From Spirochaetaceae bacterium (GTDB lineage: Bacteria; Spirochaetota; Spirochaetia; Treponematales; Breznakiellaceae), in assembly GCA_031255395.1 (NCBI GenBank), contig JAIRSQ010000171.1, positions 1-10,586 on the forward strand: DNA of 10,586 bases, in the 5' to 3' direction. How positions within the stretch are numbered: the first letter of the stretch is position 1; the number at the start of each line of letters is the position of its first letter. The notes beneath the pieces are model-generated. The model saw only the letters and a program-made list of their open reading frames with translations, was not told the origin of the DNA and searched no databases. This document shows, piece by piece, positions 8,091 through 10,384 of this stretch. A program made the position numbers and the translations under genes.

Positions 8091-8240
8091 TTGCGAGGGA
8101 ATGGCCGCTCCGGGGTTTACGGTGCAACCCCCGGCATGGAAGGAGCGGGCTTCACGGGAGTCAAAACTTCCATCCATCCCGAAGCAATCCACTGCCGAAA
8201 ATTCCTCGCCACCGGATTGCTTCGCTAAGCTTGCAATAAT
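8091..8240. repeat. Intergenic palindromic repeat-like block, non-coding
   Basis: Three nested inverted repeats are present. They are GCGAGGGAAT (8093-8102) against ATTCCTCGC (8201-8209); CCGCTCC (8105-8111) against GGAGCGG (8142-8148), enclosing CCGGGG/CCCCGG; and CGAAGCAATCC (8180-8190) against GGATTGCTTCG (8214-8224). The 'ATTGCGAGG ... GAAGCAATCC' words resemble intergenic repeats known in several bacterial groups. Open frames across it are not credible genes: no start signals, and composition driven by the palindromes. With the hairpin at 8041 and repeat copy A it accounts for most of the gene-free stretch 7940-8381. Confidence 0.5.
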
Positions 8241-8314
8241 GCCCCCGGACGCTCCGGAAACGCCGACGGCTTGACAATTGGCGAAGAAAGGGGCGAGTAT
8301 AGGGCGTTATGCGC
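8240..8314 (+). repeat. Cassette-boundary repeat, copy A (right half only)
   Basis: It shares with copy B the block CCCCCGGA...CCGGAAACGCCGACGG, then TTGACA (8271-8276), then GGCGAAGAAAGG (8280-8291), then TATAGGG and the terminal GTTATGCGC (8306-8314) followed by CAAT-type sequence. Relative to copy B it lacks about 38 bp between TTGACA and GGCGAAG, the segment that holds B's -10 box. The left half (GCRCATAACGAGG...) is absent. It lies just upstream of the flavoprotein gene. Confidence 0.6.
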
Positions 8315-8334
8315 AATGTTTTTTGAAAATTATG

Positions 8335-8377
8335 TTGCGTAAAAATAAAAAGTATGATATAAATAAAAATCGGAGGG
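8335..8377 (+). promoter_or_regulatory. Promoter and ribosome binding site of the flavoprotein gene
   Basis: TTGCGT (8335-8340), a 17-nt spacer and TATAAA (8358-8363) lie in a very AT-rich stretch. GGAGGG (8372-8377) follows, 4 nt before ATG 8382. The strong Shine-Dalgarno fixes the start. Confidence 0.6.
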
Positions 8378-8381
8378 AAAG

Positions 8382-8747
8382 ATGAAAATTATCGGATTTA
8401 TTGCAAGTTCTCGGAAAGAAGGCAATACTGCCTGGATAGTGAATAAAATACTGGAAGGCGCAAAAGAGCAGGGGGCCGAAACTCAATCTTGGAGTTTTAG
8501 CGACCTTGACATCAAACCTTGCCATGGTTGTTCGGCTTGCAAAAAGGGCGACAAGGGTTGCGTTATAAATGACGATATGCAAAAACTATACACAGTTTTT
8601 ATAGATACCGACGCTGTAGTTCTAGGATCGCCAGTTTATATGGGGCAAATGAGCGCGCAGGCAAAGATATTTACCGATAGATTGTATGCGTGCACTTCTC
8701 CACGATTTTCTCCGTATTTTAAAGAAAGTGCCAAGAAAAAAAGATGA
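8382..8747 (+). CDS. NADPH-dependent FMN reductase / iron-sulfur flavoprotein family, N-terminal part (gene split by frameshift)
   Basis: This is 121 residues of flavodoxin fold. MKIIGFIASSRKEGNT holds the FMN-phosphate loop (SSRKEGNT, residues 9-16), and GSPVYMGQMSAQAKIFTDR (residues 82-100) is the second flavin-contact block. Cysteines 47, 50, 53 and 60 form CHGCSACKKGDKGC (C-x2-C-x2-C-x6-C). This is the compact motif that binds a [4Fe-4S] cluster in some iron-sulfur flavoproteins; many relatives with the same motif are only known as FMN reductases. The frame ends ...ESAKKKR-TGA, well short of the usual ~180-190 residues, and the missing C-terminus continues at once in the -1 frame. The break is at an A7 run (8736-8742). 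The gene has its own promoter and a strong ribosome binding site, and is AT-richer than the left-hand genes. Confidence 0.8.
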   Translation: MKIIGFIASSRKEGNTAWIVNKILEGAKEQGAETQSWSFSDLDIKPCHGCSACKKGDKGCVINDDMQKLYTVFIDTDAVVLGSPVYMGQMSAQAKIFTDRLYACTSPRFSPYFKESAKKKR

Positions 8748-8947
8748 TACTTGTTTTTACTCAGGGCAATCCCGATCCCAATCTATTTCAATCATATTTT
8801 GATTATACGAAAAATATGTTTAAAGCGCTTGAATTTGATGTTAGAAGCGTACAGGTCATTGCCGGTATGCGGAATGGATCGGCGCATGAAAGAAATGATC
8901 TGCATACTACAATGAAAGATATTGGTTCATCATTGGTTTTGGAATAA
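8744..8947 (+). CDS. C-terminal part of the same flavoprotein, in the -1 frame
   Basis: The 67 residues begin MILVFTQGNPDPNLFQSYFD. The VFTQGNPDP block is the usual strand and loop found in the C-terminal third of this reductase family, directly after a KKK-type stretch, so this is not an independent gene. Its ATG overlaps the upstream TGA (ATGA, 8744-8747), and it has no Shine-Dalgarno sequence of its own. It could be made by -1 slippage on the A7 run, by stop-restart at ATGA, or not at all if the gene is decayed. A single-base sequencing error in the A run would also give this picture. Joined, the two parts reach about 187 residues, full length for the family. Confidence 0.7.
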   Translation: MILVFTQGNPDPNLFQSYFDYTKNMFKALEFDVRSVQVIAGMRNGSAHERNDLHTTMKDIGSSLVLE

Positions 8948-8970
8948 AAATTGTAAAATGAAATAATAGA

Positions 8971-9075
8971 GTTGTTTAGAAACTTCAGTTTATAAACAAC
9001 AACCGCTAAAAAACAGCAAAATGCAAAGCATTTTGCAAGACTTGGACGACAACCAACCGGGTTGTTGAACAAGTC
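8971..9075. repeat. Cluster of three hairpins downstream of the flavoprotein gene
   Basis: Hairpin 1 (8971-9000) is GTTGTTTA-G-AAACT and AGTTT-A-TAAACAAC around TC. Hairpin 2 (9016-9036) is a perfect 9-bp stem, GCAAAATGC/GCATTTTGC, with an AAA loop. Hairpin 3 (9039-9075) is GACTTG/CAAGTC enclosing ACAACC/GGTTGT. None has a good T tract on either strand. Hairpin 1, 23 nt past the stop, may still act as an RNA 3' end. The gene-free stretch 8948-9390 consists of this cluster, repeat copy B and the methyltransferase leader. Confidence 0.6.
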
Positions 9076-9095
9076 CAATGGAGTACGGACAAACG

Positions 9096-9276
9096 GCACA
9101 TAACGAGGCTGTCGAATTAGTCGTTTTCGGGGGGCATGGGTATTTCCGGGACTAGCGTTCGAAGTACTCCCGGACACCCGGAGACACCGCCGGCTTGACA
9201 AAACGCGGCGGCTTCACATATACTGCCAAACAGGTGGTATAGGCGAAGAAAGGTTCGCCTATAGGGAGTTATGTGC
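9096..9276 (+). repeat. Cassette-boundary repeat, copy B (complete, 181 bp)
   Basis: It is bounded by the perfect 9-bp inverted ends GCACATAAC (9096-9104) and GTTATGTGC (9268-9276). The first 70 bases match copy C almost exactly, and the right part matches copy A. Internal structure includes TCGAA-T-TAGTC paired with GACTA-GCG-TTCGA (also conserved in copy C), CCGCCG/CGGCGG around the -35 box, and a perfect 10-bp hairpin TATAGGCGAA/TTCGCCTATA (9238-9263). The inverted ends resemble the GCATAAC...GTTATGC pair of Vibrio-type attC sites. However, the whole element does not fold into one long attC hairpin and is longer than most attC. Confidence 0.65.
9195..9224 (+). promoter_or_regulatory. Promoter inside repeat copy B, driving the FkbM gene
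   Basis: Consensus TTGACA (9195-9200), an 18-nt spacer and TATACT (9219-9224) make this the best sigma-70-type promoter in the window. Transcription would start near 9231, giving a leader of about 160 nt that contains the 9238-9263 hairpin and the hairpin at 9312-9329. Confidence 0.65.
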
Positions 9277-9390
9277 AATAGAACGGCAAAATGGTCTAAA
9301 CGATGATAAGCGGCGGCATCCGTGCCGCCACAAAAAGCAAAAAATACCTTTTGTTGGATATTGCGCAAATCATTTTGGAGGTTTGTGGCA
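9277..9390 (+). promoter_or_regulatory. Leader of the FkbM gene with hairpin and ribosome binding site
   Basis: GGCGGCA (9312-9318) and TGCCGCC (9323-9329) form a GC-rich hairpin with a 4-nt loop and no T tract after it. GGAGG (9377-9381), 9 nt before ATG 9391, fixes the start of the methyltransferase. It excludes the in-frame GTG at 9322, which lies inside the hairpin. Confidence 0.55.
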
Positions 9391-10134
9391 ATGGGTCTTA
9401 AAACGTTAATAAAAAATACTATAAAAATGTGTATACCTTACGGTATTCTTGTTTTTTATCATCGTATAAAAAAAACAGGAAAGTATCAGGAAGAAAGCCG
9501 TTTATATTTCAGCGAACAAGGGGAAGACATCTTATTGGAACAATATTTAGAAAAAAAGCAAGGATTTTATGTCGATATTGGAGCGTATAATCCTGATCGC
9601 GTGTCTGTAACAAAAAAGTTTTATTTGCAAGGATGGTCTGGAATTAATATTGAACCAAATCCTGTTGCAATAAAACAATTTATAAGAAAACGAACAAGGG
9701 ATATAAACATTAACATGGGGGTCGCGGATGTGGTTTCTGAACTTGATTTTTATTTTTTGGGGGAAACATCAACTTGTAACACTTTTGATAAAGAACGTTA
9801 TGAAACGGAATATAAATCGAGGGGGGGGGGTATTATAAAAATTAAAGTTATGCCGATAAATAATATACTTGAAAAATATCTGCCAAGAAAACAGCATATC
9901 GATTTTATAAATATCGATGTTGAAAACTATGAAATGAAAATACTGAAATCATTTGATTTTAAAAAATATGGTCCTGATTATTTTTTGATTGAAGATTTAA
10001 CATTTACAAACAATGATATTGATTTTATGGGTTTTAGTTCATCGAAATTATATAAACTAATGAATAAAAACGGGTATATTGTTGTTGCAAAGACACATTA
10101 CACAATTTTATTCAAACGAATAAGAGATTATTGA
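9391..10134 (+). CDS. FkbM family SAM-dependent methyltransferase
   Basis: This is 247 residues from ATG 9391 (GGAGG nine bases upstream). FkbM-fold motifs are clear: SEQGEDILLEQYL, motif I YVDIGAYNP (SAM loop), INIEPNP (acidic residue for the SAM ribose), CNTF, and IDFINIDVENYEMKILKSF, matching the family's IDVEGxE block. Members O-methylate sugars or polyketides, and in bacteria many sit in surface-glycan loci. No glycan genes are nearby here, so the substrate is open. The gene is strikingly AT-rich compared with pckG, ppaC or the azl genes, which indicates horizontal acquisition. Codons for SRGGGI contain ten consecutive G (9821-9830) just before the KIKVMPINNILEKY segment, so a one-base slip would truncate the protein before the IDVENYE block. 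It has a promoter within repeat B upstream and a GC-rich hairpin downstream. Confidence 0.9.
   Translation: MGLKTLIKNTIKMCIPYGILVFYHRIKKTGKYQEESRLYFSEQGEDILLEQYLEKKQGFYVDIGAYNPDRVSVTKKFYLQGWSGINIEPNPVAIKQFIRKRTRDININMGVADVVSELDFYFLGETSTCNTFDKERYETEYKSRGGGIIKIKVMPINNILEKYLPRKQHIDFINIDVENYEMKILKSFDFKKYGPDYFLIEDLTFTNNDIDFMGFSSSKLYKLMNKNGYIVVAKTHYTILFKRIRDY
9821..9830 (+). repeat. Intragenic poly(G)10 tract
   Basis: Ten uninterrupted G residues lie inside the AT-rich FkbM reading frame (AGG GGG GGG GGT, in frame as written). Tracts of this length slip readily in replication and switch genes on and off in other bacteria. With ten G the frame is open. Confidence 0.9.
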
Positions 10135-10156
10135 ATAAATTAGAGGTAAAAATAAG

Positions 10157-10182
10157 CCGCCGCCATCCATGGCGGCGGTTTC
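10157..10182 (+). terminator. Probable terminator of the FkbM gene
   Basis: A perfect 9-bp stem, CCGCCGCCA (10157-10165) and TGGCGGCGG (10170-10178), with a TCCA loop lies 22 nt after the stop and is followed by TTTC. The T tract is short, but the stem is strong and stands out in this AT-rich setting. Confidence 0.6.
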
Positions 10183-10197
10183 GTAGGCCGTTCTACT

Positions 10198-10283
10198 GCG
10201 CATAACGAGGCTGTCGAATTAGTCGTTTTCGGGGGCATGGGTATTTCCGGGACTAACGTTCGAAGTTCCCCCGGAAACGCCGC
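10198..10283 (+). repeat. Cassette-boundary repeat, copy C (left half only)
   Basis: It starts GCGCATAAC (10198-10206) and follows copy B through GAGGCTGTCGAATTAGTC...GACTAACGTTCGAAGT. Over about 66 bp it has one single-G length difference and one substitution, then CCCCCGG-AAACGCCGCCGG. It loses similarity before the TTGACA and lacks the GTTATGYGC end. The remainder, to 10384, is non-coding and shows only a small imperfect hairpin (CGCCG...CGGCG). Confidence 0.65.
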
Positions 10284-10384
10284 CGGCCATCTCCCCCGTC
10301 AAACTCGCTAGCCACCAAATCGACGCCATTCCTCACTGCTCATTTCTCATTCGTACTCAACGCCGCCAGCCTGACGGCGAAGGG

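Follow-up and report, generated by a model that had tools for sequence, protein, structure and literature searches.

Does a locus in which a flavoprotein gene and an FkbM-type methyltransferase gene are framed by three attC-like repeats belong to an integron, and if so, to which kind? The window (the whole stretch that was analysed, 10,586 nucleotides) is contig C94 of the draft genome, here G000, of a Spirochaetaceae bacterium, an assembly of 1.3 Mb in 213 contigs that is 56% complete. We take the metagenome-assembled isolates of this family to be derived from termite guts, going by the way in which they are named. The initial annotation of the locus proposed a short cassette array or a relic of one. 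The window is very probably a decayed, two-unit remnant of a kind of chromosomal integron that is widespread in the family and whose integrase lacks I2, the specific domain of the integron integrase IntI. The earlier proposal was right about integron-type cassette DNA and a relic. In detail it was not: only the FkbM unit passes a test of its ends (see below), and no attC is left in the window. Taken alone, the window attracts modest interest as a relic; in its relatives, the system is an integron variant whose integrase is missing the defining domain.

The order copy A, flavoprotein gene, copy B, FkbM gene and copy C is as the initial annotation described it. Copy A (8241-8314) consists of a right half only and ends in GTTATGCGC at 8306-8314, copy B (9096-9276) has both halves and extends from GCACATAAC (9096-9104) through GTTATGTGC (9268-9276), and copy C (10198-10288) is a left half only, starting with GCGCATAAC (10198-10206). 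The complementarity reported for the ends was recovered in full, with nine of nine positions both between the two ends of copy B and between the end of A and the start of C, and the outer boxes (GCRCATAAC and GTTATGYGC) are mutual complements. The block shared by B and C, described as about 66 nearly identical bases, exists and is longer: 82 bp (9096-9177 in B, 10198-10278 in C) at 92.7% identity. Copies A and B have two shorter blocks in common, one of 39 bp (82% identity) and one of 34 bp (85%). When copy B was used as query against its own genome, matches were obtained with C (E 1.4e-27) and with contigs C184 (7e-25), C210 (2e-13) and C213 (1e-9); the two pieces of copy A reached about 1e-3 each only, and three more matches (E 0.02-0.4) look like chance. 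The repeats exceed chance within their own genome. Of the additional copies, those on contigs C184 and C210 are right halves and that on C213 is a left half; all of them lie beside other sequence.

The evidence that the window holds integron-type DNA comes from the ends of the units themselves. Each cassette was examined for agreement between its own start and its own end over 11 positions beyond the 9-base core, with 25 cassettes from related arrays, 15 of them from one genome, as reference. In these array cassettes the agreement of own ends averages 7.0 of 11, a value matched by none of 10,000 permutations, compared with 3.9 of 11 for ends of other cassettes in the same locus (214 pairs) and 3.6 of 11 overall (600 pairs); at base 11, an A in the start stands against a G in the end strand in 22 of the 25. 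The ends of the FkbM unit (cassette 2, 9269-10206, plus strand) are complementary over 20 bases at 90%, a match that the initial annotation does not mention, agree in 10 of 11 positions beyond the core, which only one of 600 mismatched pairs reached, and show the same A/G at base 11. Since its own ends pass the test derived from array cassettes, the FkbM unit is a genuine integron-type cassette.

Complete versions of the system are present in relatives. A right-half core, the type of site seen in copy A, directly adjoins the integrase gene on its downstream side in, for example, G089, G137 and G042. Among 30 integrase loci, a same-strand core site was located no more than 400 bp downstream in 17; in one it was on the opposite strand, and in none was it upstream. 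The genes of the arrays are separated by GCACATAAC-AGGA-CTGTATGCG ... CGCATACAG-CCGGAAC-GTTATGTGC, representing the R'', L'', L' and R' boxes of attC, and the R'' and R' boxes of the window are those of these integrase-led arrays. Arrays of cassettes in a single orientation were met in such relatives: in G058 (a single contig) the integrase is followed by 16 matches of an attC covariance model in 20 kb, in one orientation throughout, and G063 has ten (one partial), in two groups of one orientation over the 33 kb searched. In the window both units are on the plus strand, and one of them passes the end test. Within the genus of the window, attC-type right halves were counted in nine of 11 genomes (43 in G004 and 26 in G002; reversed control, none of 11), and none was found in its own genome.

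The covariance model rests on attC sites from the integrase loci. Of 134 core sites there, 39 came with an R'' candidate. Those in which at least seven of eight L bases were complementary, 22 in number, were used further, so that their R and L pairing is partly due to selection. In all 22, the bottom strand gives a more stable fold than the top strand. Nineteen were aligned, leaving out three long ones; in the consensus, the R and L stems are accompanied by two branches, the first of them long and stacked on the L stem. The RNAalifold consensus has 34 pairs, and in 20 of these both sides show changes; a third branch is present in the ten single-sequence folds printed. These branched sites measure about 150-185 bp in the relatives. 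The model (R1), for which at most 14 candidates were scored per genome, matches 163 of 190 family genomes and 47 of 56 genera.

A tyrosine recombinase profile with a cut-off of E 1e-70 matched the array integrase in 70 of 195 family genomes. The enzyme is mostly about 380-450 aa long and contains domains PF13495 and PF00589; its N-terminus is extended by about 100 residues (residues 1-110 of P0001) that have no Pfam match. By sequence its best solved relative is IntI4, to which it aligns in two pieces that skip IntI4 residues 179-240, a stretch without counterpart in the array integrase. The distance between boxes I and II is 93 aa in 108 of 120 homologues (91-99 in seven, not measured in five), compared with 131-134 in 101 of 120 canonical IntI proteins (larger in 14, not measured in five); the seven XerC/XerD-type proteins that were measured gave 97-98. 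In the alignment, the IntI insertion of about 40 residues is absent, while the catalytic residues and the SPLD tail are retained; going by what PMC9668308 and PMC7790495 describe, the absent insertion would include I2. The platform is not of the Treponema denticola type, which the initial annotation mentioned as known, as the array integrase lacks the IntI-specific stretch. TIGR02249, the integron-integrase model, scores 202-214 bits with the three proteins scanned, none of which reaches its cut-off of 265. The highest score is obtained with NF040815, an XerA-type model described as site-specific tyrosine recombinase/integron integrase (208-222 bits, cut-off 220), which one of the three passes.

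Judged from aligned sequences, the array integrase lies outside the IntI clade. In a tree that included recombinases associated with IS91, an insertion sequence (IS), the canonical IntI proteins (100/100), the array integrases (91/96) and the IS91-associated enzymes (100/99) form separate groups whose order the tree leaves unresolved; in a tree without the IS91 group, the IntI proteins were still on one side of a branch and the new integrases were not. A predicted structure of the integrase has low overall confidence (pLDDT 79, pTM 0.46), and the fold search made with it serves as support only; Vibrio cholerae IntI4 (2a3v) and XerA (5hxy and 4a8e), the best solved relatives by sequence, are among its best matches. 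Named organisms among the 120 best homologues are Treponema (one of them Treponema primitia), Hollandina, Spirochaetaceae and Spirochaetia.

Against this background the window can be read from left to right, all features named here being on the plus strand. Copy A (8241-8314) is, by sequence comparison, an attI-type right half with a degenerate promoter region, TATAGGGCG and the cassette start TTATGCGC, in which crossover would be expected between G8306 and T8307. The flavoprotein unit (unit 1, 8307-9104) has a cassette-type start and a cassette-type R'' end, the latter being the R'' box GCACATAAC (9096-9104) of its lost attC. Directly after the AAC of this box comes the end of an element with terminal inverted repeats (TIR), GAGGCTGTCGAATTAGTCG..., at 9105-9177. 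This is followed by the right half of copy B (9178-9276), a promoter-attI module that ends in GTTATGTGC and includes a Pc-like candidate promoter, TTGACA - 18 bp - TATACT (9195-9224), and a perfect hairpin, TAGGCGAA-GAAAGG-TTCGCCTA (9240-9261), immediately 5' of the crossover. Cassette 2 ends with the R'' box GCGCATAAC of its attC (10198-10206), which is the start of copy C; the remainder of that attC is lost, and a second copy of the TIR element end with the start of the promoter module (10207-10288) leads into unrelated DNA. The window therefore holds no attC: A and B carry promoter and attI-type right halves, and of an attC, B and C keep the R'' box alone. The remark that the ends differ from standard attC was to the point, as they are attI-type or hybrid and are interrupted by a transposon-like terminal repeat. 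Of the layout proposed earlier, one promoter and one plus-strand gene per unit, the orientation stands; the promoter lies in repeat B and not in the cassette, and the flavoprotein gene occupies two frames.

The junction of R'' box and TIR element may point to how the attC sites were lost. The sequence GAGGCTGTCGAATTA is found immediately 3' of the R'' AAC in both B and C, and 15 loci share this junction. A complete short TIR element with AAC on both sides is present in L075, L084, L085 and L088, the far side in L087 reads AAT instead of AAC, and attC L'' sequence resumes past the element in L085, L087 and L088; in the other ten junction loci the far end was not recognised. Copies B and C retain one element end only. 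The end runs into the promoter-attI half in B and in L164, and the same half is placed after R''-L'' of an attC in L163 and L168. The element appears to be attC-targeting and similar to miniature inverted-repeat transposable elements (MITEs), with an end that resembles an attC spacer plus L'' box. By eye, no transposase for it was recognised among the frames of L076, L077, L080, L086 and L089, and no family search was run.

Two candidates for an attC in the window were considered. Taking GAGGCTGTCGAATTAGTCG as the L'' box was rejected, as complete copies of the element, with both terminal repeats and flanked by AAC at either end, are placed within attCs and B offers a partner of four bases only (CTGT/ACAG) instead of eight to nine. 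The predicted bottom-strand fold of B consists of the R stem, the hairpin and this four-base pairing in the L position, and its stability hardly differs between bottom (-30.3) and top (-29.5) strand. Copy B as a whole was likewise rejected as attC, given the four-base L-like pairing and the absence of a match with the attC model.

From these data the following mechanism may be proposed. In intact relatives the integrase gene is read towards attI, where cassettes would be expected to enter at G|TT. Each cassette ends in an attC of about 150-185 bp, the bottom strand of which folds into R and L stems, with an unpaired spacer between them, and into side branches. The I2-less integrase may recombine such folded sites, perhaps recognising the side branches in place of extrahelical bases. 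Of the two units in the window, cassette 2 with its FkbM gene is one intact cassette body, and unit 1 a frameshifted and probably fused one. Both units lost their attC just past the R'' box, where the end of the small TIR element now sits, and each is preceded by a promoter-attI-type half site, degenerate in the case of A, from which it could now be expressed as a fixed gene. In this picture the repeats, the agreement of cassette ends, the linkage of integrase, attI and array in relatives, the covarying attC folds and the missing insertion were directly seen, whereas recombination by the enzyme, expression and the order of decay are inferred.

Several results weigh against reading the window as a remnant of this integron. 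The attC covariance model has no match in the window or in G000. Furthermore, the I2-less integrase family is absent at E 1e-70 from this draft and from ten other drafts of the same genus, in which Xer-type matches and short partial ones were seen (G004:C65, with one stop; G001:C114, beside an attI-type site; G007:C249). The absence of an integrase, together with copies that keep the same neighbours, had been named beforehand as grounds for abandoning a cassette origin; the first applies to the I2-less family in this draft, the second does not, since different genes flank the copies. In the family as a whole, the attC model was found in 62 of the 70 integrase genomes (G011, G050 and G146 are without a match, and five more were not listed), the integrase profile is without a match at that cut-off in 101 of the 163 genomes in which the attC model matched, through draft gaps or loss, and 13 of the 30 integrase loci have no core site within 400 bp. 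A permissive 17-base attI-type pattern allowing one mismatch gave 35 sites in 25 of 145 genomes and 13 for the reversed control, so that some of the listed sites are due to chance, and integrase sequence lies within 700 bp upstream at only five of the 35 distinct sites; G000 has four exact sites (reversed, none). Finally, the ends of the flavoprotein unit agree in 3 of 11 positions only and fail the end test, and unit 1 is probably a fusion of ends from two different cassettes.

Among the alternatives, the one that fares best holds that the promoter-attI halves are a mobile promoter module in their own right, and that the window represents two separate attI-cassette insertions instead of a decayed array. 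The module or part of it has four matches in G000 and more in six other genomes of 195, none of which was traced to an attI beside an integrase. A 756-bp block of promoter-attI half and cassette gene is 95.8% identical between G000:C210 and G117:C273 (loci L108 and L098), with no further match around it; this may reflect cassette transfer or a binning mixture, and binning mixtures could mimic such a shared block. The position of the module speaks for a different origin: in L163, L168 and window B it comes after the 5' portion of an attC. A similar arrangement is known from the attI-type cassettes of class 1 and class 2 integrons; in these, according to PMC12901181, a partial attI takes the place of attC, and they are reported there to be excisable. 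The independent module is a doubtful explanation, and one that we would still give some weight. With a partial attI instead of attC, these delta-attI cassettes have an attI-ORF-attI-like layout (ORF, open reading frame) that window B resembles and may share (PMC12901181); the window differs in being a chromosomal relic, in having promoter-like sequence within the half site and in the TIR end between R'' and the attI half.

It is quite improbable that dispersed MITE-like elements and promoter repeats flank two genes by chance, without any cassette system. Dispersal itself is real for the TIR element and for a 118-bp repeat in unit 1, part of B occurs without an att core in L015, and no attC fold was obtained in the window beyond the R boxes and the four-base CTGT/ACAG, nor a model match. 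A chance arrangement, however, does not account for the 20-nt matched ends of cassette 2 and their A/G mismatch, which obey the rule of array cassettes, for R'' and R' boxes identical to those of integrase-led arrays, or for the same site type preceding different genes at four places in G000 (A, B, C184 and C210).

Equally slim is the chance that a host XerC/XerD or a recombinase of phage or integrative and conjugative element type uses the sites and that the IntI-like gene is a passenger. Such enzymes are available, as G000 encodes XerC, XerD and two further Phage_integrase genes, and the integrase profile remained unmatched in the 101 attC-matched genomes mentioned above. Against a passenger role, the gene immediately precedes a core site in 17 of 30 loci and lies behind one in none, and its product has IntI4 as its best solved relative by sequence and keeps the IntI-type SPLD tail. 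XerC and XerD of G000 were rejected as cognate enzymes; by eye, they adjoin hslV- and ftsZ-like frames.

A canonical Treponema denticola-type integron whose ordinary IntI is merely missing from the draft is barely credible: the gene orientation is the same, with the integrase read towards attI (PMC3607928), and canonical IntI is present over the cut-off in five of 145 family genomes (G046, G052, G062, G092 and G120), but none of these five is among the 70 with the I2-less enzyme, none has a branched-attC match, and the enzyme beside branched-attC arrays in relatives is without the IntI insertion. The contigs with canonical IntI (L221-L225), taken as a control, likewise gave no match of the branched-attC model; a crude attC scan of them hit one place (both strands) in L222 and nothing elsewhere, and is no useful positive control.

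The probable remnant of an I2-less integron can be set beside known systems. According to PMC3607928, the T. denticola-type integron also has an integrase directed towards attI, a common cassette direction, single-gene cassettes, a GTT/AAC core and hairpin attC sites; in contrast, the array integrase here lacks the IntI insertion and falls outside the IntI clade on sequence grounds, and its attCs, at about 150-185 bp, are branched. IS91-associated recombinases, which are about 37-40% identical, are also without the IntI insertion and have an SPLD/SPLE-type tail, and four of six fetched plasmid relatives (L204, L206, L207 and L208) are directly upstream of an IS91-family transposase gene; the Treponema-type enzyme differs by its N-terminal extension of about 100 residues and by the att cores and cassettes that follow it. 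A related enzyme, without the IntI insertion and with a box distance of 91 residues, is encoded on a plasmid of Rufibacter tibetensis (Bacteroidota; L205 1862-5672, and L209), followed by small genes and GTTAG-type attC-like sites, in which no match to the branched attC model was found. An A/G mismatch in the Rufibacter cassette ends was noted by eye only.

Whether these findings amount to a second class of integrons is an evenly balanced question: such a class would extend across most genera of the spirochaete family and possibly to a Bacteroidota plasmid, its recombinase would never have acquired I2, and the side hairpins of the branched attC would replace the extrahelical bases. PMC7790495 describes I2 as necessary for cassette capture, its deletion abolishing IntI1 function, and as occurring in no other protein; it also states that the sequence of an ancestral integrase had not been inferred. 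With array-leading integrases that lack I2 and have an attC architecture of their own, the need for I2 in folded-strand recombination becomes directly testable, and a second class, if real, would be a natural comparison point for the origins of integrons. The results also bear on the statement in PMC3607928 that there is no trace of integrons in Treponema primitia and T. azotonutricium, as a protein with the organism name T. primitia (P0101) belongs to the array integrase family. IntegronFinder requires an IntI-specific domain match to call an integrase (PMC9668308), and such arrays are therefore likely to be filed as integrase-less clusters. Among the papers listed in searches for integrons in termite-gut spirochaetes or for integrases without the domain, which left out most subscription papers and all bioRxiv preprints, none deals with this system, judging from titles and abstracts.

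With regard to the genes of the window, the flavoprotein gene is similar to NADPH-dependent FMN reductases. Its 5' frame (8382-8747, plus strand; PF03358) is broken at an A tract, and a second frame (8744-8947, plus strand), which alone has no Pfam match, is probably the 3' part of the same gene. A relative in G001, 73% identical at the DNA level, spans both frames and is open there (L132 1488-2018). This gene had been expected to occur elsewhere as a cassette, which was rejected, since the one relative seen, that in G001, lies outside any att context, with no att core around it. The FkbM-type methyltransferase gene (PF05050) is located at 9391-10134 on the plus strand; the DNA of its cassette was found in none of the other 189 family genomes when these were searched at the DNA level with a cut-off of E 1e-10, at which distant relatives are missed.

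Unit 1 also contains the dispersed, MITE-like intergenic repeat of about 118 bp (8961-9080), whose ends read GTTGTTT...AACAAC. In 90 of 145 family genomes a match was obtained and, among the matches listed, nearly all correspond to this stretch. Finally, GC-rich hairpins are present close to both ends of cassette 2 (9311-9328 and 10154-10181), and a similar hairpin is found close to a cassette end in L089 and to a cassette start in L007.

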